A stretch of 64,000 nucleotides of DNA from the NCBI GenBank assembly GCA_020630955.1, contig JAHDIE010000009.1, positions 1 through 64,000 of the forward strand, read 5' to 3'. The number at the start of each line of letters is the position of its first letter. The stretch's first letter is position 1. Source of the stretch: Saprospiraceae bacterium (GTDB lineage: Bacteria; Bacteroidota; Bacteroidia; Chitinophagales; Saprospiraceae). The translations under genes were made by a program, and so were the position numbers. The notes under the pieces were generated by a model. The model saw nothing but the letters and a program-made list of their open reading frames with translations, was not told the origin of the DNA and did no database searches. Shown in pieces: positions 43,592 through 57,415 of the stretch.

Positions 43592-43930
43592 TTATTTTAG
43601 TTTTTCATTATCGATATGTCTGGTCTTATCTCTCATGGTCTTTTTCTCAATATTATTTTTAATGGCAGACTCTAAATTTATATCCATTTGATTAGCCAGA
43701 CAGAACAATACAAAAATTATGTCCGCCATTTCATCTGATAATTTGTGATTAATTTCCTCTTCAGTAATTTTTTCTTTGAAAGATTGTTCTCCATATCTCC
43801 TAGCTATCAACCTTGATAATTCACCCACCTCTTCTGTTAAGATGGCCATATTTGTCAATTCATTAAAGTATCTAACTCCATACTTTTTTATCCAATCATC
43901 AATTAAGTATTGAGCCTCTTGAATTGTCAT
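43592..43930 (-). CDS. MazG-like nucleotide pyrophosphohydrolase
   Basis: LTEEVGELSRLIARRYGEQ...INHKLSDEMADIIFVLFCLANQ. Confidence 0.9.
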   Translation of the reverse strand: MTIQEAQYLIDDWIKKYGVRYFNELTNMAILTEEVGELSRLIARRYGEQSFKEKITEEEINHKLSDEMADIIFVLFCLANQMDINLESAIKNNIEKKTMRDKTRHIDNEKLK

Positions 43931-44379
43931 TCTTTTACTTTTGAATCAATAATAATTGTCACTGGACCATCATTTAATAATTCCACCTTCATATCAGCAC
44001 CAAAAGATCCAGTTTGTACATTGAGATTAGCAACTTCTTTACAGTAGTTAATAAACTTATCATATAAAGGTATTGCTAAGTCAGGTTTCGCTGCATTTAT
44101 AAAACTGGGTCTATTTCCTTTTCTTGTACTTGCATAGAGTGTAAATTGACTCACAACCAATAAGCTTCCATTGGTATCTAGAATTGAAAAATTCATTTTC
44201 CCTTCAGTATCCCCAAAAATTCTCATATTGAGAATTTTATTAACCATCCATTCTATGTCATTCATGGAGTCATCATCCATAAAACCTAATAAAATAAGTA
44301 AACCATTATCTATTCTTGAGTATACTTGATTTTCTATACTAACACTTGCTCTTTTCACTCTTTGAATAACTGCCTTCAT
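43927..44379 (-). CDS. dtd: D-aminoacyl-tRNA deacylase
   Basis: MKAVIQRVKRASVSIENQVYSRIDNGLLILLGF; SQFTLYASTRKGNRPSF; GSFGADMKVELLNDGPVTIIID. Confidence 0.96.
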   Translation of the reverse strand: MKAVIQRVKRASVSIENQVYSRIDNGLLILLGFMDDDSMNDIEWMVNKILNMRIFGDTEGKMNFSILDTNGSLLVVSQFTLYASTRKGNRPSFINAAKPDLAIPLYDKFINYCKEVANLNVQTGSFGADMKVELLNDGPVTIIIDSKVKE

Positions 44380-44389
44380 ATCATTTTAT

Positions 44390-44767
44390 AAATTGTGGAA
44401 AACTTATACTTATGCACTTGTAAAATTGTTTTCCAACCATAAACATATCATTCGGTGGATAATTATTTTTCTATCAACAAGATATCTTGAAAAATTAACA
44501 ATGATATTTTCAATAATAAAAATTTTAACAATTAATCAACTTATCCACATTAATAAGTTTTATACTTAGTAGAACAGGTAAGTACTTGTGGAAAATCTGT
44601 TACTTATTTCTGAATAATGCAAGTCAAAAGAGTTATTAACAATTCCACATGATTAATGATTATAATAGTTTTTTATTTAAATATTAATTATAATTAATAG
44701 AGTGAAGTGAAAATGTGGAAAGCTTAATTTGAAATTGTCTACTTTCGATCTAGTAAAATTGATCTGA
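44390..44767. other. oriC: Candidate chromosomal replication origin (oriC): DnaA-box cluster in AT-rich intergenic DNA
   Basis: Perfect TTATCCACA at 44541-44549; one-mismatch boxes at 44394-44402 (TGTGGAAAA), 44454-44462 (GGTGGATAA), 44587-44595 (TGTGGAAAA); weaker TCCACA cores at 44641-44649 and 44714-44722; very AT-rich stretch ~44660-44700. Confidence 0.6.
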
Positions 44768-45775
44768 ATGAAATTACGTTTGTTTCATAAATTGGTTTGG
44801 ACAACATTAATTGCAATTTACCTTGTGATTCTTGCTGGTTCAGTTGTAAGAACTACTGGTTCGGGTATGGGTTGTCCAGACTGGCCAAAATGTTTTGGTC
44901 AATGGATCCCTCCTACTGATGTTTCTCAATTACCAGATAATTATAAAGAAATATTTCTTGAAAAGCGGCTTGCCAAATTAGAAAAATATAGCGGTTATTT
45001 ATCAAGATTGGGTTACGATGAAATTGCAGAAAAGATTAATACAGATCCTAAACTTCGTGAAGAAGAACCATTTGTTCCAGTAAAAACTTGGATTGAGTAT
45101 ATAAATCGTCTTTTTGGATTCTTAGCAGGAAATTTTTTAATAATTATGACGATTCTATCTTTATTTCTTTGGAAGGAAAAGAAAGCTTTCTTCTTCCTAA
45201 GTTTTACAACCCTTATTCTTACAGGAATACAAGGTTGGTTTGGATCTGTAGTTGTTGCTAGTAACCTTACACCATGGACAATAACTTTCCATATGTTGAT
45301 GGCTTTACTTATTGTTTTTCTGCTGATCAAAATTATTGCTATATCAAAGTATTCACCTCTGAAAATATCAAAGTCAGATCATGTTATTTTATATCTTGCT
45401 TTTATAATTTCTTTAGTTCAAATATATATAGGAACTCAAGTTAGACAAGAAATAGATGTTGTTGCTAATGAGGTGATAGCAAGAAGTGATTGGATTTCGC
45501 AATTAAGCTCAATTTTTGAGATTCATAGAAGTTTTGCAATTTTGGTTTTAGTAATAAATGGCTATTTATTTTATAAGCTGAGAAGTAGTTTTCCGAAAGT
45601 CTTGAAAGCTTTAATTCTAGTATTATTTATTGAGGTAATCTCAGGAATTATTATGTCATATTTTTCAATGCCAAAAGCAAGTCAACCGGTACATTTGTTA
45701 ATTGCAACTATTATTTTTGGTATTCATGCCTATATTATATGTAGAGTATCAGGCGTCACATTAATAAAAGAATAA
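44768..45775 (+). CDS. ctaA: Heme A synthase (COX15/CtaA family)
   Basis: GSVVRTTGSGMGCPDWPKCFGQWIPP; EYINRLFGFLAGNFL; EIHRSFAILVL. Confidence 0.9.
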   Translation: MKLRLFHKLVWTTLIAIYLVILAGSVVRTTGSGMGCPDWPKCFGQWIPPTDVSQLPDNYKEIFLEKRLAKLEKYSGYLSRLGYDEIAEKINTDPKLREEEPFVPVKTWIEYINRLFGFLAGNFLIIMTILSLFLWKEKKAFFFLSFTTLILTGIQGWFGSVVVASNLTPWTITFHMLMALLIVFLLIKIIAISKYSPLKISKSDHVILYLAFIISLVQIYIGTQVRQEIDVVANEVIARSDWISQLSSIFEIHRSFAILVLVINGYLFYKLRSSFPKVLKALILVLFIEVISGIIMSYFSMPKASQPVHLLIATIIFGIHAYIICRVSGVTLIKE

Positions 45776-45781
45776 GATCAT

Positions 45782-46537
45782 ATGCCAGAGGAAGGTAATT
45801 TTAAATATTTGGAGACTAAAGGAGGAAAACATAATATTGTTTTACTGCATGGACTATTGGGTCAACTAAGCAATTTTCAAGGAATACTGGATGGGTTTAG
45901 TGATCGATATAATGTGGTGTTTCCTCATTTGCCTATTTTGGAAATGCCAGTAAAAGAAGTTGGTATTGGCGCATTGCTTCAATACGTTAGTTCTTTTATA
46001 AAACATAAGGACTATGATAAGGTTAATTTGATTGGAAATTCTTTAGGAGGTCATTTGGCACAGCTTTATACTTTGGATAATCCAGATAAAGTTCAGACAT
46101 TGACATTAACTGGTAGTTCAGGATTATTTGAAAGTGCAATGGGATCAACTTTTCCTAAAAGAGGAAATTACGAGTATATAAAGGAAAAAGTACAAACGAC
46201 TTTTTATGACCCAGCAACAGCATCTGAAGAATTAATAGATGAAATATTTAAAACAGTTAATGATAGAATGAAAGCTATTAGAATTGTTGCAACAGCAAAA
46301 TCAGCTGTTCGTCATAATCTTGGAGACAAGCTACATAATATAAAAGTTCCTAGTTTATTGGTATGGGGAAAACAGGATGGAGTTACCCCTCCATTTGTCG
46401 GAGAAAAGTTTAATGAACTTCTGGTAAATTCTGAATTACATTTTATTGATAAATGTGGACATGCTCCAATGATGGAACATCCTGAAGAATTCAACAAGAT
46501 TCTTGATCAATTTCTTTATAAGAATCTTGTTGAATAA
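45782..46537 (+). CDS. Alpha/beta hydrolase
   Basis: NIVLLHGLLGQLSNF; NLIGNSLGGHLAQLYT; CGHAPMMEHPEEFN. Confidence 0.93.
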   Translation: MPEEGNFKYLETKGGKHNIVLLHGLLGQLSNFQGILDGFSDRYNVVFPHLPILEMPVKEVGIGALLQYVSSFIKHKDYDKVNLIGNSLGGHLAQLYTLDNPDKVQTLTLTGSSGLFESAMGSTFPKRGNYEYIKEKVQTTFYDPATASEELIDEIFKTVNDRMKAIRIVATAKSAVRHNLGDKLHNIKVPSLLVWGKQDGVTPPFVGEKFNELLVNSELHFIDKCGHAPMMEHPEEFNKILDQFLYKNLVE

Positions 46538-46541
46538 TTAT

Positions 46542-48848
46542 TTAAGGTCTAGTAGATTTCTTTTTCTTAGCTTTTTGCATTTCGTTTTCTTGATTGAATT
46601 GTTGTCTTTCAAACATTTCAAATTTACTTTCTTCTTTCTTAGGTGGAAAAGAGTTATTACTTGTATCAGTATCTGCAGTTTCTAAGAAAGGATCTAAAGT
46701 TATACTCACCACTTCTTTTTCTTTTGCAAACACTTTAGATACGTTTGTACTTGATCCCATTTTCCATATTTCTGCTGGAATTCTAATTAACTCATTTGAT
46801 CCATCTGAATAGGTAAATTCTAAAATAACAGGCATTACAAGACCACCTTTATTCGATAAATTAATCTGATAGTAATTGAGATCGTCATTAAGAACAGCTT
46901 TTTCTTTTTCGCTTAGAGAGGTATAGTATTCATCATAATCTTTTTGATCCATTTGGTTTGCTTTAAATGGATCATAAGTAGAGTAGAAATCTTTTAAGCT
47001 TGAATCTTGTTCATCATATGTTTCTTCTATTTCCTCTTTGTTTCTCATATAAGAAATACCTTTTTCTCTATCGGTTATCTTACCTGCATTTGGATCTGGT
47101 TGTTTAGAATTTACTTTAAAGTATTCAACATTGTCTATTGAGATATCTACATGGTCATTGGTATAAAACCATCCTCTCCAAAACCAATCCAAATCTACAC
47201 TTGATGCATCTTCCATGGTTCTAAAGAAGTCAGCTGGAGTGGGATGTTTGAACATCCACCGATTTGCATATTCTTTAAACGCAAAATCAAATAACTCTCT
47301 GCCCATGACAGTCTCTCTTAAAATATTCAAGGCTGTTGCTGGTTTACCGTAGGCATTGTTACCAAATTGATGAATAGATTCTGAGTTAGTCATAATTGGA
47401 GATATCTTTGATTTATCTCCTCCCATGTAGGGAACAATTTTGTGAGCTGGTCCTCTTCTACTTGGATAATTTCTCTCCCATTGAACTTCTGTTAGATATT
47501 GTAGGAAAGTAGTTAGACCTTCATCCATCCAGGTCCATTGTCTTTCATCTGAATTAACAATCATTGGAAAATAATTGTGACCTACTTCATGAATAATGAC
47601 AGAGATCATTCCATACTTTATCCTTTTTGAATAAGTACCATCTTCTTCACATCTTCCATAATTGAAACATATCATAGGATATTCCATTCCAATTCTTGCA
47701 GCATTGATTGACCATGCTACTGGATATGGGTAAGGAAAAGTATAATGAGAAAACCATTTTAATGTGTGAGCTACTGCTTTTGTAGAATATTTTTCCCAAA
47801 GAGGATTTCCTTCTTTAGGGTACATAGACATAGCCATAACTTTTGTTCCATCTATTTGTTTTACTGCCATAGCATCCCAGATAAATTTTCTGGAAGAAGC
47901 AAAAGCAAAGTCCCTTACATTCTCTGCATGGAAAACCCATGTTTTTTTGTTATTTGATCTTTTGGTTTCTCTTTTTTCTGCTTCGGATTGGGTGGCTATA
48001 ATAATTGGTTGTTCATATTCCTCACTTGCTTTTTTTAGTCTTTTCTTTTGCTCAGTACTAAGTACATCATTTTCATTTTGAAGTACACCTGTACTTGCAA
48101 CCAAATGATCTGAGGGTACGGTGATACTAACTTTATAGTCTCCAAAACTAAGTGTAAATTCACCTCTACCTAAGAATTGTTTATTCTGCCAACCATAAAC
48201 ATCGTTATACATGCACATTCGAGGATAGAATTGTGCAATTGTATAAAGGTAGTTATCATCTTTTTCAAAATATTCATATCCTGATCTTCCTCCGATTTGC
48301 ATTCTATCATTAATATTATACCACCATTTTATCTTAAAAGAATAAGATTCTCCAGGATTTAGTGCTGTTGGAATGTCAACCCTCATCATGGTTTTATTGA
48401 TTGTATTGGGTAAATCTTGCCCAGTGGTAGTTTGCACTGATTCTATTTTAAAGCCACCATCAAAATCTGGATTTAGTGACCCTAGTGTTCTAACATTCAT
48501 TTTATCATCAACTTCATTTGTTTTGATAATATGACTATCTGAATCTAATGCTCTAACATTTTGATCAAGTTGTACCCATAGATATCTTAATATATCAGGA
48601 GAGTTATTGTGATAAGTTATTGTTTCTTCACCATGTATGGTCTGGTTCTCATCATCTAATTCTAATGATATTTCATAATCTGCTTTTTGCTGCCAATATT
48701 CATGTCCTGGTGCTCCCGACGCAGTTCTATAACTATTAGGGGTAGGTAAATCTTCGCTAAGTTGTTTGAACTTATTTTGATTGGTATTTACTTGAGCTGA
48801 AAGAGTTGTCCCAGTTATTAATAAACAAAAGAATAATATTTTTTTCAT
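46542..48848 (-). CDS. M1 family aminopeptidase-like metallopeptidase
   Basis: Signal peptide; IIHEVGHNYFPMIVNSDERQWTWMDEGLTTFLQYL (HExxH...E). Confidence 0.92.
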   Translation of the reverse strand: MKKILFFCLLITGTTLSAQVNTNQNKFKQLSEDLPTPNSYRTASGAPGHEYWQQKADYEISLELDDENQTIHGEETITYHNNSPDILRYLWVQLDQNVRALDSDSHIIKTNEVDDKMNVRTLGSLNPDFDGGFKIESVQTTTGQDLPNTINKTMMRVDIPTALNPGESYSFKIKWWYNINDRMQIGGRSGYEYFEKDDNYLYTIAQFYPRMCMYNDVYGWQNKQFLGRGEFTLSFGDYKVSITVPSDHLVASTGVLQNENDVLSTEQKKRLKKASEEYEQPIIIATQSEAEKRETKRSNNKKTWVFHAENVRDFAFASSRKFIWDAMAVKQIDGTKVMAMSMYPKEGNPLWEKYSTKAVAHTLKWFSHYTFPYPYPVAWSINAARIGMEYPMICFNYGRCEEDGTYSKRIKYGMISVIIHEVGHNYFPMIVNSDERQWTWMDEGLTTFLQYLTEVQWERNYPSRRGPAHKIVPYMGGDKSKISPIMTNSESIHQFGNNAYGKPATALNILRETVMGRELFDFAFKEYANRWMFKHPTPADFFRTMEDASSVDLDWFWRGWFYTNDHVDISIDNVEYFKVNSKQPDPNAGKITDREKGISYMRNKEEIEETYDEQDSSLKDFYSTYDPFKANQMDQKDYDEYYTSLSEKEKAVLNDDLNYYQINLSNKGGLVMPVILEFTYSDGSNELIRIPAEIWKMGSSTNVSKVFAKEKEVVSITLDPFLETADTDTSNNSFPPKKEESKFEMFERQQFNQENEMQKAKKKKSTRP

Positions 48849-48938
48849 GTGTATTTTATTTATTCAGTTGAAACAAATATAAATAATGCTATTTAGAATT
48901 TCTGATGTTATATGTATCTCCTGTAAAACGAATTAGTA

Positions 48939-48954
48939 TGTTTCACGTGAAACA
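48939..48954. promoter_or_regulatory. parS: parS centromere site (copy 1)
   Basis: Exact TGTTTCACGTGAAACA palindrome. Confidence 0.9.
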
Positions 48955-48985
48955 ATTTGTCTAGATACATAAATAATAAGAAATA

Positions 48986-49001
48986 TGTTTCACGTGAAAC
49001 A
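48986..49001. promoter_or_regulatory. parS: parS centromere site (copy 2)
   Basis: Exact TGTTTCACGTGAAACA; both copies share the longer TATGTTTCACGTGAAACAAT; start-to-start spacing 47 bp. Confidence 0.9.
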
Positions 49002-49005
49002 ATCC

Positions 49006-50298
49006 TTAATATTTTGATAGCAAAAACGACTTGAAGGATTGAAAGTTGTTGTTTAATTTAATACTTACTTTTTCTTTTTCCAGAAGTTGCTGAATTGAAT
49101 CTGGAAGATTGACTTTAGTTGAGATTGAATTTTCTACATCTTCAATAAATTTGCATGGGTGAGCAGTCTCTAAAAATATTACCTCGGCATTATTGTTTTC
49201 TAGAAAACTTTGAGCTGCCATAAATCCAATAGCACCGTGAGGATCCAATATATAAGAATAATCTTTGAAGACTTTTCTCATACAATCTTTTATAGCATTG
49301 TCATCATACCAATATCCACTAATATTTTCACGCATGGATTCAAGGGTAGAATAGAGTTCTTGCATTCTTACAAAGTTGGATGGATTTCCAACATCCATAG
49401 CATTGGCAATTGTTTCTTTTGAATGTATGGGGAGGTATTCTCCAGTGTCAAGATAATCAGGTACTACTTTGTTTATATTGGTAGCAGCAATATACTTATG
49501 AATTGCTAGGCCCATTTTTTTAGCCAATAGACCAGCTGTTAGATTTCCAAAATTTCCACTTGGGACAGCAAAAACTAAATTATCATCGGTTCTTTTTTGT
49601 TTGTAAGCTTCGAAATAATAAAACGATTGTGGAATCAATCTGGCGATGTTGATTGAATTTGCAGAAGAAAGATTAAATCTTTGATTTAAATCTTGATCCA
49701 AGAATGCTGTTTTAACAATACGCTGGCAATCATCGAAGTTTCCATCAATTTCACAAGCAGTAATATTTTTACCTAGAGTGGTCAATTGCTTTTCTTGAAT
49801 ATCACTCACCTTACCTGAAGGGTAAAGAATAACAACATTAATTCCTTCTGCTTCATAAAAACCAGAAGCAACAGCACCACCGGTATCTCCGCTGGTTGCA
49901 ACTAAAATTGTTATTTCATTATTATTTTCTTTATTGAAATAGGACATCAACTGGGCCATAAATCTTGCACCAAAATCTTTGAAAGCCAAACTGGGCCCAT
50001 GGAATAATTCAAGGGTAGCAATTTTATCTGTGATGTTTACCACAGGTGCAGCAAAGGTCATAGAACGATTAATGATTTCCATCAGATCATTGGCGGGAAT
50101 ATAGTCCTTGAATAAATTAGTACAAATAGTAAAAGCAATTTCTTGAAAACTATATTGAGGTAAATGTGTGAGAAAAGAATCATTAAGCATTGGAATATCC
50201 AGTGGCATGTATAATCCTTTATCCTCTGCCAATGAATTCAAAACTGCTTTTCTTAAGTCAACAATATTATTTTTATTATTTGTGCTATACAGTTTCAT
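49006..50298 (-). CDS. thrC: Threonine synthase
   Basis: HGPSLAFKDFGARFMAQLM; LVATSGDTGGAVASGFYEAEGINVVILYP. Confidence 0.96.
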   Translation of the reverse strand: MKLYSTNNKNNIVDLRKAVLNSLAEDKGLYMPLDIPMLNDSFLTHLPQYSFQEIAFTICTNLFKDYIPANDLMEIINRSMTFAAPVVNITDKIATLELFHGPSLAFKDFGARFMAQLMSYFNKENNNEITILVATSGDTGGAVASGFYEAEGINVVILYPSGKVSDIQEKQLTTLGKNITACEIDGNFDDCQRIVKTAFLDQDLNQRFNLSSANSINIARLIPQSFYYFEAYKQKRTDDNLVFAVPSGNFGNLTAGLLAKKMGLAIHKYIAATNINKVVPDYLDTGEYLPIHSKETIANAMDVGNPSNFVRMQELYSTLESMRENISGYWYDDNAIKDCMRKVFKDYSYILDPHGAIGFMAAQSFLENNNAEVIFLETAHPCKFIEDVENSISTKVNLPDSIQQLLEKEKVSIKLNNNFQSFKSFLLSKY

Positions 50299-50300
50299 GC

Positions 50301-51239
50301 TTAAAGTTTTATTGCTCCCTCTTTATTGATTTCTGAAATATATGATTGGCTTTCTATACCCTTTGATATCAAATGTTCACAAATCTTTGTTGCTACATTC
50401 TCAGCAATCAAACTGTTTTGACACAAGGCAAACAATGAAGGACCAGCACCACTGATTGAAAAACCCAAAGCCTCATTTTTTAATGCAATATCTTTTAGGT
50501 CATAAAAGTGAGGAATAAGTTTTGCTCTCTGTGGTTCAACAATAATATCTTTTAATGACCTCTTCATAAGTTCTAAATCAGAACGATATAAACTTGCAAC
50601 AAAAGCAGCAAGGTTACCTGACTGTTCGATCATCTGATCCATAGTAATGGTATCTGAAAGAATACTTCTCGATTCGGAAGTAAGAACAGAAATCTCAGGA
50701 TGGATAACAACAGCATAAATACCATTTGGAACAGGAAGATTTATTATATCATGTTCCTGATTATTTCTAATTAAAACAATTCCACCCATTAATGATGGTG
50801 CAACATTGTCAGCATGATAAGCACCATCTGCGACTTGTTCTCCTTTGAGTACAAAAGGCAGTAATTCTTTTTTATTTAAAGGACAGCCTAAGAATTCGTT
50901 TACAGCGAAAGCACCAGCTACGGCACTCGCTGCACTTGATCCCATTCCACTTGCGAAAGGCATTTTTTTGTAGATATCCATTTCAATAGGCATCTCCTCT
51001 TTACCCAAATATTTTAGTAGAGCTTGAGCCGCAACTCCAGCTGTATTCTTCTCAATACTTTTTGGTAATTTATTTTTTGCACCATGAATTGCCCTGATCT
51101 TAAGTCCAGGATTTTTACCATATCCAATTTTTATTTCATCACCTGGCCCTTCGATTGCAAACCCGAGTATGTCATAGCCAACAGCTACATTGGCAACAGT
51201 CGCTGGAGCAAATACTTTAAGTCCTACAAAATCACTCAT
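50301..51239 (-). CDS. thrB: Homoserine kinase
   Basis: MPFASGMGSSAASAVAGAFAVNEFLG (GHMP motif); GFSISGAGPSLFAL. Confidence 0.96.
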   Translation of the reverse strand: MSDFVGLKVFAPATVANVAVGYDILGFAIEGPGDEIKIGYGKNPGLKIRAIHGAKNKLPKSIEKNTAGVAAQALLKYLGKEEMPIEMDIYKKMPFASGMGSSAASAVAGAFAVNEFLGCPLNKKELLPFVLKGEQVADGAYHADNVAPSLMGGIVLIRNNQEHDIINLPVPNGIYAVVIHPEISVLTSESRSILSDTITMDQMIEQSGNLAAFVASLYRSDLELMKRSLKDIIVEPQRAKLIPHFYDLKDIALKNEALGFSISGAGPSLFALCQNSLIAENVATKICEHLISKGIESQSYISEINKEGAIKL

Positions 51240-51248
51240 AAAATAAAT

Positions 51249-53717
51249 TTAGAAATTAAAATTTTCATTTGCAATTTGCATAATCTCTGCAAAAACACCC
51301 GCAGCCGTTACGTTAGCTCCAGCGCCAGGACCGCTGATAACTAAAGGTGAGTCAACATAACGCAATGTATGAAATGAAATCATATTGGCACTGTTAGAAA
51401 GATTGTAAAAAGGACTTGAAGCATCAACTGATTTTAATTGAATAAAGGCTTCGTTATTTTCAAAAGTTGCAATGTACCTTAGCCTATAATTGTTATTTTC
51501 AGCTTCTATTATCATTTTGTGAAAATGATCTTCAAATTTAATTAGGGATTCATAAAACAACTCAACGGTTTCAGCTTTCATACATTCATCTGGAAGAATT
51601 GGTGATAGTTTTACATCAGATTGATTAATCATATATCCTGATTCCCTAGCCAGGATGGTAATTTTTCTTTTTACATCGGAACCACTTAAATCATCTCTTG
51701 GGTCAGGTTCAGTATAACCCAAGCTTTGTGCTTCCTTTACAATATCATGAAACTTAGATTCGCTATTGTAATTGTTGAAAATAAATGAAAGAGATCCACT
51801 TAGGACGGCTTCAATTTTTTCAATGGTGTCTCCTGAATTTCTTAAACTTTTAATTGTAGATATCACAGGTAGACCTGCACCAACATTTGTTTCGTTTAGA
51901 AATCTAGTGTTTCGTATTAAAGCAAGTTTTTTTAACTCATGATAGGATTCGATACTAGCGGAACTAGCAACCTTATTTGGTGTGGCAATGGATATGCTTT
52001 TGTTGATAATTTGTTTGTAAAAGTCTGGAATTCTTGCCGATGCAGTATTATCAATAAATATTGAATTAGCTAAATTCAGATCAATCATTTTATCTACAAA
52101 AATTTGAGGATCAGCTGTTTCTTCACTTTGTAAAAGCAGTTCTTCCCAATGATTTAATTCAATACCATTTTCATTAAAAAACATTTTTCTGCTATTAGAA
52201 ATACCAATCAATTTGAGATCGATGCCCTTCGTTTCTAGAACTTTTTGTTTAAACTCTTTTAATTGTTCAATCAATGTACTTCCAATTAAACCAGTACCGA
52301 CTACAAATAAATTTAACGTTTTGATGGTGTTATTGAAGAAGGTATTATGAATAAGGTTTAAGGACTTTTTTTCATCATCCGATTTGACGGCAAAAGAGAT
52401 ATTTAACTCAGAAGAGCCTTGTGCAATGGCTTCAATATTAACACCATTTCTTCCAAGACAAGAAAATAACTTACCTGCTATTCCTGGTTGATCTTTCATG
52501 GCTTCACCAACAGCAGCTATGATACAAATGTCTTTCTCAACATGTATTTCTGCTAGATCTTGATTATTTATTTCATTAGCAAATTCTACTTTCAAAACCT
52601 CTCTTGCAATATCTGCTTTGTCTTCTTTAATAGCTACACAAATTGAATGTTCTGATGATGCTTGCGTTATAAGAATAACATTAATTTGACTATTGGCTAG
52701 ACTGCTAAACATTCTTGAAGCAATCCCAGGTACTCCCTGCATTCCTGTCCCAGATAGTGTTAGTAAAGCTATATTTGATTGTGAGGACAATCCTTTAATG
52801 GTACCCGAATTTTTTTGTAGGGAGTTATTGTCTATTAGTGTTCCTACATAATTTGGATTGAAAGTATTTTTTATATAAGTAGGAATTCCTTTTTCATTTA
52901 CTGGACGGATGGTTGGAGGATATATTACTTTAGCTCCAAAATGTGACATTTCCATAGCTTCGATGTAGCTCATATTTTTTATAGGATATGCTGTACTTAC
53001 AATATTAGGATTGCTTGTTAGCACACCATCAACATCTGTCCAAATTTCTAACTGTTGGGCGTCCAAAGCAGCTGCAAATAGAGCTGCAGTGTAATCAGAA
53101 CCTCCTCTTCCTAGGGTTGTGGTTCTACCGTGTTGGTCTGAGGCGATGAAGCCTGTAATTAGTTTTGTTTTTTTAGAGTATTGATTTACGGTTTTTATAA
53201 TATTTTGATAACTGTCATCCTTATAAACTCTGGCAGAACGAAATTCACTATTGGTTTTAATAATATCTCTTGCATCAAGAAAGACACTGGGTAAGCCATT
53301 CGCGACGAAGTAGTGGGTAATTGAAAGGTTGCTGAGCCTCTCTCCAAAACTCATAACATAATCATAGGATCTATCGGAAGCTTCCTTCAATAGAAAAACG
53401 CCTTTTAATACGTTTTCAAGTTTAAGAAATAATAAATCAATTTGTGTAAGCAAATCAACTCTTGCGTTTCCCTCTAATAAAAACCTAGCTGTTTCATAAT
53501 GACGGTTTTTGCATTGATCAGCAATTTCTGCATATTTTTCATTTCCCAGAGCAGCAATTTCTATCATATTAATCAGCTGGTCTGTTACACCTCCGAAGGC
53601 AGAGCATACAATACATAGGTTTTGTCCTGATTCAACACGAGGCTTTACAATCGACAAAATATTTTTAATTCTATCTGGTTTACCAACAGAACTTCCACCA
53701 AATTTTAAAACGATCAT
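51249..53717 (-). CDS. thrA: Bifunctional aspartokinase/homoserine dehydrogenase
   Basis: MIVLKFGGSSVGKPDRIKNI; ACT domains; NETNVGAGLPVISTIKSLRNSGDTIEKIEAVLSGSLSFIFN. Confidence 0.97.
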   Translation of the reverse strand: MIVLKFGGSSVGKPDRIKNILSIVKPRVESGQNLCIVCSAFGGVTDQLINMIEIAALGNEKYAEIADQCKNRHYETARFLLEGNARVDLLTQIDLLFLKLENVLKGVFLLKEASDRSYDYVMSFGERLSNLSITHYFVANGLPSVFLDARDIIKTNSEFRSARVYKDDSYQNIIKTVNQYSKKTKLITGFIASDQHGRTTTLGRGGSDYTAALFAAALDAQQLEIWTDVDGVLTSNPNIVSTAYPIKNMSYIEAMEMSHFGAKVIYPPTIRPVNEKGIPTYIKNTFNPNYVGTLIDNNSLQKNSGTIKGLSSQSNIALLTLSGTGMQGVPGIASRMFSSLANSQINVILITQASSEHSICVAIKEDKADIAREVLKVEFANEINNQDLAEIHVEKDICIIAAVGEAMKDQPGIAGKLFSCLGRNGVNIEAIAQGSSELNISFAVKSDDEKKSLNLIHNTFFNNTIKTLNLFVVGTGLIGSTLIEQLKEFKQKVLETKGIDLKLIGISNSRKMFFNENGIELNHWEELLLQSEETADPQIFVDKMIDLNLANSIFIDNTASARIPDFYKQIINKSISIATPNKVASSASIESYHELKKLALIRNTRFLNETNVGAGLPVISTIKSLRNSGDTIEKIEAVLSGSLSFIFNNYNSESKFHDIVKEAQSLGYTEPDPRDDLSGSDVKRKITILARESGYMINQSDVKLSPILPDECMKAETVELFYESLIKFEDHFHKMIIEAENNNYRLRYIATFENNEAFIQLKSVDASSPFYNLSNSANMISFHTLRYVDSPLVISGPGAGANVTAAGVFAEIMQIANENFNF

Positions 53718-53811
53718 TCTAAGTTCAAATTAAATTTACGAAAGAAGGATGTTAGAATAATATAATGCATAAACCGAGCCACATATTAAATAATTATAAA
53801 ATGTGTTTTTG

Positions 53812-53848
53812 AGCAAAAAAAAGGCCTTTCGTCCAACGAAAGGCCTTT
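53812..53848 (-). terminator. Rho-independent terminator of the aldehyde dehydrogenase gene
   Basis: Perfect 13-bp stem AAAGGCCTTTCGT-CCA-ACGAAAGGCCTTT (53820-53848) with A-run on the left (U-tract on the minus strand). Confidence 0.88.
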
Positions 53849-53868
53849 AAAGTTTATTTAATTCACTT

Positions 53869-55398
53869 TTAAAAGTTGAACTCAATTCCTTGTGCTAAAG
53901 GAACATCATCACTATAATTAATAGTATTTGTCTGTCTTCTCATATAGGCTTTCCAAGAATCTGAACCGGATTCTCTACCTCCTCCCGTTTCTTTTTCCCC
54001 TCCAAACGCGCCACCTATTTCAGCTCCAGAAGTTCCTATATTTACATTAGCAATTCCACAATCCGAGCCACCAGCGGATAAGAAGATCTCTGCATCTTTT
54101 AAACTGTTTGTCATGATTGCGGAGGAAAGACCTTGAGGGACATCATTTTGGATAGCGATGGCATTTGAAAGGTCGCCTGAATATTTAATAAGGTATAATA
54201 GGGGAGCAAAAGTTTCATGTTGGACTATCGCTAACTCATTGGTTACTTCAGCAATTGAAGGACTTACATAGCACCCACTTTCATAGCCAGGACCTTCAAG
54301 TTGTTTTCCTTCTACAACGACATTTCCGCCTTGATCTTTAACTGATTGTATGGCTTTAAGATAATTTTCAACTGAGTCTTTATCAATTAATGGACCAATA
54401 TGATTATTGGTATCAAGAGGGTTACCAATTTTTAATTGATTATAAGCTGAACTAATATTTTCTTTTACTTTGTCATAGATACTTTCGTGAATAATCAATC
54501 TTCTTGTAGAAGTACATCGTTGTCCACAAGTACCTACCGCACCAAACACTGCACCGGTTAATACGACTTTAAGATCAGCAGTAGGAGTAATAATGATAGC
54601 ATTGTTTCCACCTAACTCCAGTAAAGATCTACCAAGTCTTTCCGCAACGTCGCGGCCGACAGCTCTTCCCATTCTTGTACTTCCTGTGGCAGAAATTAAA
54701 GGAATTCTTTTATCACTTGTCATCCATTGCCCAACCTGTGCATCCCCAGTAATAATTGATGATATACCTTCCGGTAAATTATTTTCTTTAAGTATATCGT
54801 GTAATATTTTTTGACAAGCAATGCTACACATAGGAGTTTTTTCACTTCCTTTCCAAATACAAACATCACCACAGACTAAAGCGATCATTGAGTTCCAGGC
54901 CCAAACAGCAACAGGAAAATTGAATGCTGAAATTATTCCTACGATTCCAATTGGATGCCATTGCTCATACATTCTATGTTCAGGTCTTTCGGAGTGCATA
55001 GAAAGCCCATACAGTTGACGAGAAAGGCCAACAGCAAAGTCGCAGATATCGATCATTTCTTGAACTTCACCCCAACCTTCTTGTAAGCTTTTACCCATTT
55101 CATAAGAAACAAGTCTTCCTAAAGCGTCCTTATGTTTTCTAAGTGCTTCTCCATATTGTCTGACGATTTCACCTCTTTTAGGAGCTGGAATTTTCCTCCA
55201 TTCCGGAAATGCTTTTTGTGCTTGGGAAACAACCAGTTCATACTGTTGTTTAGTGGTTGTACTTACCTCACCAATTACTTTTCCATCTACGGGAGAATAG
55301 GAAGTAATATAGTCTTCAGAGATGTGTGCGTTGATTCCAGTCCAGGTACCATTATTTTTGGCCTCAAGACCAAGTTGTTGTAAAAAGTCTAAATTCAT
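53869..55398 (-). CDS. Aldehyde dehydrogenase, ALDH7-like (alpha-aminoadipic semialdehyde dehydrogenase type)
   Basis: WKGSEKTPMCSIACQKIL; LLELGGNNAIIITPTADL; FGAVGTCGQRCTSTRRL. Confidence 0.92.
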   Translation of the reverse strand: MNLDFLQQLGLEAKNNGTWTGINAHISEDYITSYSPVDGKVIGEVSTTTKQQYELVVSQAQKAFPEWRKIPAPKRGEIVRQYGEALRKHKDALGRLVSYEMGKSLQEGWGEVQEMIDICDFAVGLSRQLYGLSMHSERPEHRMYEQWHPIGIVGIISAFNFPVAVWAWNSMIALVCGDVCIWKGSEKTPMCSIACQKILHDILKENNLPEGISSIITGDAQVGQWMTSDKRIPLISATGSTRMGRAVGRDVAERLGRSLLELGGNNAIIITPTADLKVVLTGAVFGAVGTCGQRCTSTRRLIIHESIYDKVKENISSAYNQLKIGNPLDTNNHIGPLIDKDSVENYLKAIQSVKDQGGNVVVEGKQLEGPGYESGCYVSPSIAEVTNELAIVQHETFAPLLYLIKYSGDLSNAIAIQNDVPQGLSSAIMTNSLKDAEIFLSAGGSDCGIANVNIGTSGAEIGGAFGGEKETGGGRESGSDSWKAYMRRQTNTINYSDDVPLAQGIEFNF

Positions 55399-55427
55399 GA
55401 ATTGTCTAATTTATGGTATAAAAAAAC

Positions 55428-55446
55428 CCTTACTTGAAGGGCTTTA
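55428..55446 (-). terminator. Possible terminator downstream of the 42-aa ORF
   Basis: Imperfect hairpin aaaccctt-acttg-aagggcttt with A-run on the left (U-tract on the minus strand). Confidence 0.45.
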
Positions 55447-55454
55447 AGTATTTC

Positions 55455-55583
55455 TTACATGATTGTACCGTCGCTATGATTATACAAGGCAATCAATAAA
55501 ACTATGAATAGAAACAAAGCGAATAGAAATAAACCTAAGCAGCTTCCCTTTCTTCCCCATTTGATATTGTTTCCTCCTGACAT
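55455..55583 (-). CDS. Small single-TM protein (42 aa), not in the ORF track
   Basis: Translated by hand: MSGGNNIKWGRKGSCLGLFLFALFLFIVLLIALYNHSDGTIM*; followed by a candidate terminator. Confidence 0.5.
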   Translation of the reverse strand: MSGGNNIKWGRKGSCLGLFLFALFLFIVLLIALYNHSDGTIM

Positions 55584-55651
55584 TTTAATGTATTTTATAA
55601 TTTAGTGCAAAGAAAGGCTATTTATCATTTTTATTAAAGCAAAAAATGAAA

Positions 55652-57415
55652 TTAAATGGGTGAACATTGAGGTTTAAGCCAATTCTTGATTTCTTCGTCA
55701 AGTAGTGGACTTAATTTCTTCCAAACCAAAGCATGATAGTCATTTAACCACATAATTTCTTTTACAGAAAGCATAGCAAGATCTATTGCTTTGGTTTGTA
55801 TAGGATATAGCGTTATTGTTTCAAACTGAAGAAAATCCTCATGATCAGAGGGTATGGTAATAACAAGGTTTTCAATTCTAATTCCAAAATCACCAACTTT
55901 ATAGAACCCTGGTTCATTTGATGTTACCATTCCTGCCTTTAAAATATTTTTACCTCGGGCGGAATTTCCTGCATCAAAACCCTGTGGTCCTTCATGTACA
56001 TTTAAAAAATGACCAACACCATGACCAGTACCATGGCCATAGTTCATGTTTTCACTCCAGAGGGGTTGTCGAGCAAGTATGTCCAATTGAACCCCTTTTG
56101 TGCCTTTAGGAAATTTCGCCATTGCTAAACCAATATGCCCTTTAAGAACTAAAGTGTAGGCCTTCTTTTGTTCTTTAGTAGGTGACCCGAAAGCAAATGT
56201 TCTAGTTATATCTGTTGTTCCTTCAAAAAACTGAGCTCCAGAATCACAAAGCAATATTCCTTTTTTAGATATTGTTGATGAACTTTCTTTATTGGGTCTG
56301 TAATGTATTATCGCTCCATTTCCATTGAATCCTACAATAGCAGGAAAGCTTTCACCAAAATAATTGTTTTCCTGAGCTCTATACTCAGCAAGTTTTTCTC
56401 CAAAATGATATTCGCTGACACCATGGTCAATATTTTGGTCTAACCAATAAAATGCTTTGGCTAAAGCTATACCGTCTTTTACCATCGCTATTCTAAAGTT
56501 TTCTAATTCTACCTTATTTTTTATTGATTTTTGTTCAGTAATAAAACTAGGCTTGTTAACTACAGAATTTAAAGGTAGTAGATCATAAAGTGCAGCGTTG
56601 CATATATTTTCATCAATGATAACTTTTCCGCTTAACAACTTTACTTCGTTTTTAATGGCATCATAAGGCCTGATAGTAATGTCTAAATCATTTATGTATT
56701 TAAGAATTTCAAGCACTTTAAATTCATCGATAAAGAGATATATTTTATCAGAACTAATAATAAGATATGCAGATATTACTGGGTTAAATTCAACATCATT
56801 CCCTCTTATATTAAGCACCCATGCTAACTCGGCCAAATCCGAAATGATTATGTGTTTTGCATTATTAACAAAAAGATATTTTCTTATTGATGCTATTTTT
56901 TCTTTTGCTGAATTTCCCGAGTAAGATGAATTGTGAATAAAGGCTTTTGATATGGGTAACGCTGGACGATCATTCCATACTAATTCGATTACATCAGGAT
57001 GGGTAATTAGATTTATTTTAGCCTTATTGAGCTTTTTCCGAATGCGTTTTTCTTGTGCTTTGGATATAGTCCAACCATCGATAGCTACTGTAGAACCTTC
57101 GGCTAGGTTTTCGCAAACCCAATGATCGAAGCCTGGAGAAAGACGATTTTCAATTTTATGTAGTATGAACTCCGAGGAGCTTAACTCTTGTTCTGCTTGG
57201 AGAAAATACCTAGAATCTGTCCACAAACCCGCATGATTTTGTGTAATTAATGCGGTCCCAGCGGACCCAGTAAAACCGGAAACCCATTCTCTTGATTTCC
57301 AATGATCGGAAAGATACTCACTTTGATGAGGATCAGAGCTAGGAATAATAAGAGCATCTATTTTCTTTGTTTCTAGGATTTCCCTAATTGCCGAAATCCG
57401 GGCATTTATAGTCAT
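55652..57415 (-). CDS. Aminopeptidase P family (M24) Xaa-Pro aminopeptidase
   Basis: LLCDSGAQFFEGTTDITRTFAFG; MNYGHGTGHGVGHFLNVHEGPQG; TSNEPGFYKVGDFGIRIEN. Confidence 0.94.
   Translation of the reverse strand: MTINARISAIREILETKKIDALIIPSSDPHQSEYLSDHWKSREWVSGFTGSAGTALITQNHAGLWTDSRYFLQAEQELSSSEFILHKIENRLSPGFDHWVCENLAEGSTVAIDGWTISKAQEKRIRKKLNKAKINLITHPDVIELVWNDRPALPISKAFIHNSSYSGNSAKEKIASIRKYLFVNNAKHIIISDLAELAWVLNIRGNDVEFNPVISAYLIISSDKIYLFIDEFKVLEILKYINDLDITIRPYDAIKNEVKLLSGKVIIDENICNAALYDLLPLNSVVNKPSFITEQKSIKNKVELENFRIAMVKDGIALAKAFYWLDQNIDHGVSEYHFGEKLAEYRAQENNYFGESFPAIVGFNGNGAIIHYRPNKESSSTISKKGILLCDSGAQFFEGTTDITRTFAFGSPTKEQKKAYTLVLKGHIGLAMAKFPKGTKGVQLDILARQPLWSENMNYGHGTGHGVGHFLNVHEGPQGFDAGNSARGKNILKAGMVTSNEPGFYKVGDFGIRIENLVITIPSDHEDFLQFETITLYPIQTKAIDLAMLSVKEIMWLNDYHALVWKKLSPLLDEEIKNWLKPQCSPI

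Follow-up and report, generated by a model that had tools for sequence, protein, structure and literature searches.

INTRODUCTION

Bacterial replication origins that occupy a single intergenic region are classified as continuous (PMC4285127). The B. subtilis oriC contains a basal unwinding system that comprises DnaA-box#6 and DnaA-box#7 together with the DnaA-trios and has been reported to be widespread (PMC8287927, PMC10721633). Such systems are described by a rule in which a DnaA box is followed, after a spacer of up to 16 bp, by at least three NAN triplets (PMC8287927), and the mode in which the second helicase is loaded has been described as unclear (PMC10201434). Origins unlinked to dnaA include those of the E. 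coli type (gidA-mioC) and those of other lineages noted by Ori-Finder (PMC10225481). In a literature search that had subscription journals and DoriC outside its scope, we found no paper on a Saprospiraceae origin or on dtd and ctaA as origin indicator genes, and no work on oriC unwinding in the phylum Bacteroidota.

Here, we describe an intergenic region of a Saprospiraceae bacterium that is almost certainly the chromosomal replication origin and that lies far from dnaA. The genome under study is a 3.97-Mb draft assembly of 95 contigs, and the window that was analyzed comprises bases 1 to 64000 of contig C71 (106,731 bp). The case for the origin is computational. It consists of the position of a break in strand asymmetry, a cluster of DnaA boxes, a single parS locus, and an element conserved together with its neighboring genes, and these lines of evidence support the original prediction of a candidate oriC unlinked to dnaA.

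RESULTS AND DISCUSSION

Genomic context of the dtd-ctaA gap

The features of the region are collected in Table 1. A PADLOC scan of two neighboring proteins gave no matches. A match to the RNA element snoR101 was rejected, as it was at chance level (E value, 0.17) and under its cutoff. As predicted, the neighbors are not dnaA and dnaN: dnaA is located on another contig (C74) as a single copy with an intact 455-amino-acid reading frame that has a box-binding motif of the GGKDHSTV type close to its end. ParB and DciA are both encoded in the genome.

The separation from dnaA is on the megabase scale in relatives, the distance between dnaA and the conserved element described below being ~2.05 Mb in genome G085, 0.94 Mb in G070, and, if the contig is circular, 1.2 Mb in G154. 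Contig C1 of the near-complete genome G085 is numbered from dnaA (617) and has its element at 2052329, almost half a chromosome away.

Transcription was predicted to switch at the gap from a long leftward run to rightward genes. The switch was seen locally but not as a lasting rightward run: in the region 44768 to 57415 of the window, two rightward genes (44768 to 46537) are followed by an 11-kb leftward run that extends to 57.4 kb. Since the rightward run from the gap spans only two genes, gene direction is of little help in locating the origin of this genome.

TABLE 1 Coordinates of the features in and around the dtd-ctaA gap (window positions)
Feature	Position	Strand	Description
dtd	43927..44379	-	D-aminoacyl-tRNA deacylase; Pfam PF02580 (2e-60), TIGR00256; divergent from the origin
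dtd-ctaA intergenic gap, oriC region	44380..44767		388 bp; 77% AT
DnaA box	44394..44402	-	TTTTCCACA; 1 mismatch
DnaA box	44454..44462	-	TTATCCACC; 1 mismatch
DnaA box	44541..44549	+	TTATCCACA; perfect
DnaA box	44587..44595	-	TTTTCCACA; 1 mismatch
Putative basal-unwinding DnaA box 1	44633..44641	+	TTATTAACA; 2 mismatches
Putative basal-unwinding DnaA box 2	44641..44649	+	AATTCCACA; 3 mismatches; 8-bp pitch, co-oriented with box 1
DnaA-trio-like run	44653..44673	-	Seven consecutive bottom-strand 3'-NAN-5' triplets, 11 bp after box 1
AT tract, putative duplex-unwinding element	44654..44699		44/46 AT
Mirror DnaA box	44714..44722	-	CTTTCCACA; 2 mismatches; faces the AT tract from the far side
ctaA/COX15	44768..45775	+	Haem A synthase family protein; Pfam PF02628 (8e-41)
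parS	48939..48954		TGTTTCACGTGAAACA; exact
parS	48986..49001		TGTTTCACGTGAAACA; exact

Strand asymmetry changes at the gap

Strand asymmetry was modeled as the use of G versus C at third codon positions on the plus strand, according to coding direction and the side of a single break, and was profiled over 588 kb of the draft assembly (all of C71 and C74 and 180 kb of C18); a second break may exist in the remainder of the draft. Among all gene boundaries of the 106.7-kb contig (85 ORFs), the best break was 44379|44768, i.e., the gap itself, with a gain of 127 lnL. The third-codon skew is -0.144 to the left of the gap, where C exceeds G, and +0.212 to the right, where G exceeds C, and the sign of this change is that of an origin and not of a terminus. 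The runner-up boundaries were worse by 2.6 (one short gene away), 6.5, and 7.7 lnL and then by more than 12. Other blocks of 85 genes gave gains of 3 to 11, except for a shift on C74 at 194 to 199 kb (45 to 67), and the dnaA region on C74 showed no skew flip (gain, 4). At the C74 shift (G000:C74:194500-199140, on the dnaA-bearing contig), the skew rises from about -0.25/-0.31 to near zero (-0.245 to +0.028), and the sign change does not last; this shift could stem from island acquisition, from inversion, or from a faulty join.

The original prediction had placed the minimum of the cumulative GC skew near 44.5 kb. The direction-modeled break indeed falls inside the gap, but the raw cumulative curve of the contig reaches its lowest point at 56.8 kb. 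This raw minimum is accounted for by the leftward orientation of the genes between 46.5 and 57.4 kb, and the raw curve alone, being misleading, was replaced by the direction-modeled third-codon skew.

Skew breaks were also sought in relatives. In G154, a near-complete genome from another genus of the family, the break on a 7.3-Mb contig coincided exactly with the element of that genome (skew, -0.132 to +0.146; gain, 140). In the 4.35-Mb contig of G085, the raw cumulative minimum (2,052,643) and the element (2,052,329) are ~300 bp apart, and the third-codon break at the element had a gain of 25, slightly beaten by one of 27.7 near the edge of the stretch. G045 has a break at dtd (gain, 39), G052 has a weak one at its element (gain, 7), and G009 has none at its own element. 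In G001, the gap was a close second (48.6 versus 52.2), the best break lying 7 kb away.

The raw minimum at 56.8 kb and the displaced break of G001 would both fit a true origin elsewhere within ~12 kb, for instance, close to parS at 48.9 kb or at the position of the raw minimum itself. We regard this as very unlikely, since breaks placed at 45.8, 49, 51, and 53.8 kb are worse by 8 to 22 lnL, the leftward genes explain the raw minimum, and the box cluster, the element, and its conservation are all located in the gap.

DnaA boxes in the gap

All DnaA boxes and TCCACA cores of the original prediction were found at the predicted coordinates, the cores being within 44641 to 44649 (plus strand) and 44714 to 44722 (minus strand). 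The single perfect box is not significant in itself, because perfect boxes show no genome-wide excess (TTATCCACA occurs 53 times versus 48 times for the reversed pattern). The gap holds four boxes with no more than one mismatch in 390 bp, whereas any other 390-bp stretch of the 588 kb holds two at most. A DnaA-box cluster above background, which is a criterion of bacterial oriC, is thus present in the gap.

The boxes have counterparts in congeners. A box-like sequence occupies the place of the 44394 box, ~15 bp 5' of dtd, in loci L021 to L024. The aligned GTGGA core of the 44454 box is retained in L021 and L022, which also have TTATCAACA at the place aligned with the 44541 box, and L021 has a perfect box at the place equivalent to that of the 44587 box.

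A putative basal unwinding system at the right end of the gap

The sequence of the right end of the gap (44633 to 44699) resembles a basal unwinding system, which was absent from the original prediction. Alignment of the gap with those of five congeners gave a conserved layout in which two tandem DnaA boxes are followed by a spacer of four bases, by TAATAATAG-type repeats, and by an AT tract. In the window, the box pair is followed by TGAT and then, from 44653, by the triplets AAT, TAC, TAA, TAT, TAT, CAA, and AAA. The preferred trio is 3'-GAT-5', and a box-proximal CTA (3'-GAT-5') starts the run in many loci of the family. The sequence from 44653 conforms to the trio rule, although this is a weak test, since AT-rich DNA easily provides NAN triplets.

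With box 1 allowed up to two mismatches and a co-oriented box 2 up to four, the window pair (two and three mismatches) qualifies as a basal-unwinding pair. Tandem boxes with the same 8-bp pitch are present in many Saprospiraceae loci, and the degeneracy of the pair in this genome counts against the oriC reading. The extremely AT-rich block predicted beside the boxes is real, and its suitability for unwinding is putative; only one other place in the 588 kb is equally AT rich.

Our first pattern for the element, MACANNNNTAATNATNNTNATA, had one match in the genome, the gap. Because this pattern had been drawn with the window sequence in view, we relied on a matrix built from the five congeners only. 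The best match of this matrix in the 588 kb was at 44632 (22.0 bits, versus 15.2 for the next), and scores of 9 to 25 were obtained with it upstream of dtd in seven further genera. A reading of the unit as a perfect dyad was rejected; higher 90-bp dyad scores than that of the unit (24) occur at other places on the contig, and no palindrome is therefore claimed.

The element and its neighboring genes are conserved in Saprospiraceae

An element pattern drawn from about six loci was found, with up to three mismatches, in 43 of 199 Saprospiraceae genomes, compared to 2 for a reversed control, and was absent from the other 156 at this mismatch limit. Given the few loci used for the design, most of the matches are independent of it. 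Forty loci were examined, of which four resembled coding sequence and were dropped as nonelements, leaving 36 loci from 30 genera. In 33 of these 36, ctaA follows the element in the same direction, 45 to 585 bp downstream, and in 27 dtd lies divergently upstream; thus, dtd and ctaA represent the origin neighborhood of the family. Conservation in relatives, against which the original prediction could be judged, was therefore observed for the box positions as well as for the gene neighborhood. In G085 and G154, the place of dtd is taken by a SRAP/YedK-like gene and two transketolase-like halves (named by eye from the translations), and ctaA, which stays in both, is thus the more constant neighbor. 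Matching elements, none of which is beside dtd or ctaA, were also seen in other Bacteroidota families (L261, L262, L263, and L265). Sequence comparison suggests that conservation of the element may reach beyond Saprospiraceae.

The two perfect parS sites predicted ~4.4 kb from the gap proved to be real and are the only exact copies in the 3.97-Mb assembly. Of the 61 genomes searched, ten Saprospiraceae genomes have exact parS, which is on the same contig as dtd in eight of the ten. In seven genomes (G000, G001, G004, G005, G007, G009, and G045), parS lies on the oriC side of dtd at a distance of 2.6 to 4.9 kb, and in G044 it is 11.5 kb away on the opposite side. Outside Saprospiraceae, linkage between parS and dtd was absent where it could be judged, the two being ~275 to 290 kb apart in G054 and G056.

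DnaA boxes are present in some promoters, and the gap separates two divergent genes. The region could on these grounds be a divergent dtd/ctaA promoter region where DnaA regulates transcription but does not initiate replication. We consider this extremely unlikely: a promoter alone would leave unexplained both the skew break at the gap (and at the G154 element) and the nearby sole exact parS sites, and the element is conserved where other genes replace dtd (G085 and G154).

A mirror box faces the AT tract

The mirror box beyond the AT tract is also recurrent. In the first 13 loci viewed, a minus-strand box with up to two mismatches was present at +70 to +95 from the element in 8 and a plus-strand box in none. 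Since this range was chosen after these loci had been viewed, 34 out-of-sample loci of the family were examined; 15 had a minus-strand and none a plus-strand box in the range, compared to 2.6 expected from shuffles (P = 5e-9, relatedness ignored). Six elements from outside the family (two mismatches), located beside other genes, had an inward-facing box in four cases, one of them perfect, and a plus-strand box in the range in one. L261, L262, L263, and L265 each have an inward-facing DnaA box ~72 to 82 bp from the element.

The recurrence of the mirror box hints at two-sided helicase loading. It is possible, though we hold it only tentatively and think it rather unlikely, that in the origins of Saprospiraceae and of certain other Bacteroidota a shared AT tract is flanked by two DnaA nucleation sites that face inwards at a fixed distance of about seven to eight helical turns, with one filament per strand and each filament loading one helicase. 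There is about an even chance that the mirror box is instead part of the ctaA promoter and has no role in origin opening. Its location no more than 55 bp from the ctaA start and its lack in about half of the loci are consistent with a promoter role, whereas its fixed offset and strand in the out-of-sample family loci and its presence in the majority of the outside-family loci, which have other neighbors, argue against such a role. If true, the two-sided arrangement would be a symmetric, DnaA-only solution for loading the second helicase; for B. subtilis, by contrast, a route via DnaD has been proposed.

Proposed initiation at the gap and its implications

For the gap as oriC, the sequence allows DnaA binding, strand opening, helicase loading, and ParB binding at the locus to be proposed. 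DnaA produced from its distant gene would bind the four stronger boxes (44394 to 44595) and the tandem pair, from which a DnaA-ATP filament would grow rightwards along a single strand of the trio-like run, opening the AT tract. Helicase loading at this tract, probably involving DciA, would be followed by the departure of two forks, the leftward one passing through dtd and the rightward one through ctaA. The two parS sites would be bound by ParB for segregation of the new origins. More speculatively, the inward-facing box at 44714 may assist in the loading of the second helicase.

The Saprospiraceae are mostly uncultured and known largely from drafts and MAGs, and the dtd-ctaA origin provides a ready marker for them. 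A recognizable origin allows contigs to be oriented and growth rates to be derived from coverage (peak to trough). Its position also corrects genomes that have been rotated to dnaA, such as G085, the numbering of which would mislead origin-based tools. The conserved element is a compact test bed for unwinding, and the inward-facing box makes the question of the second helicase testable.

Comparison with known replication origins

The gap is an ordinary DnaA-type oriC at a location away from dnaA, such locations being known in other lineages. It shares with bacterial chromosomal origins the box cluster, the AT-rich tract, the skew break, the nearby parS, and the confinement to a single intergenic region, and it differs from the usual oriC in being flanked by dtd and ctaA and not by dnaA and dnaN. 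Like other origins unlinked to dnaA, it can be recognized from its skew and from indicator genes specific to the lineage; these are dtd and ctaA here, unlike the gidA-mioC pair of the E. coli type. The right end of the gap resembles the B. subtilis basal unwinding system in its tandem co-oriented boxes, short spacer (often GC rich in Saprospiraceae, e.g., GCCC or CACC), and NAN triplets on one strand followed by AT-rich DNA. In contrast to B. subtilis, the Saprospiraceae repeats are TAATAATAG-like on the top strand, the boxes overlap by one base, and an extra, inward-facing DnaA box is often present on the opposite side.
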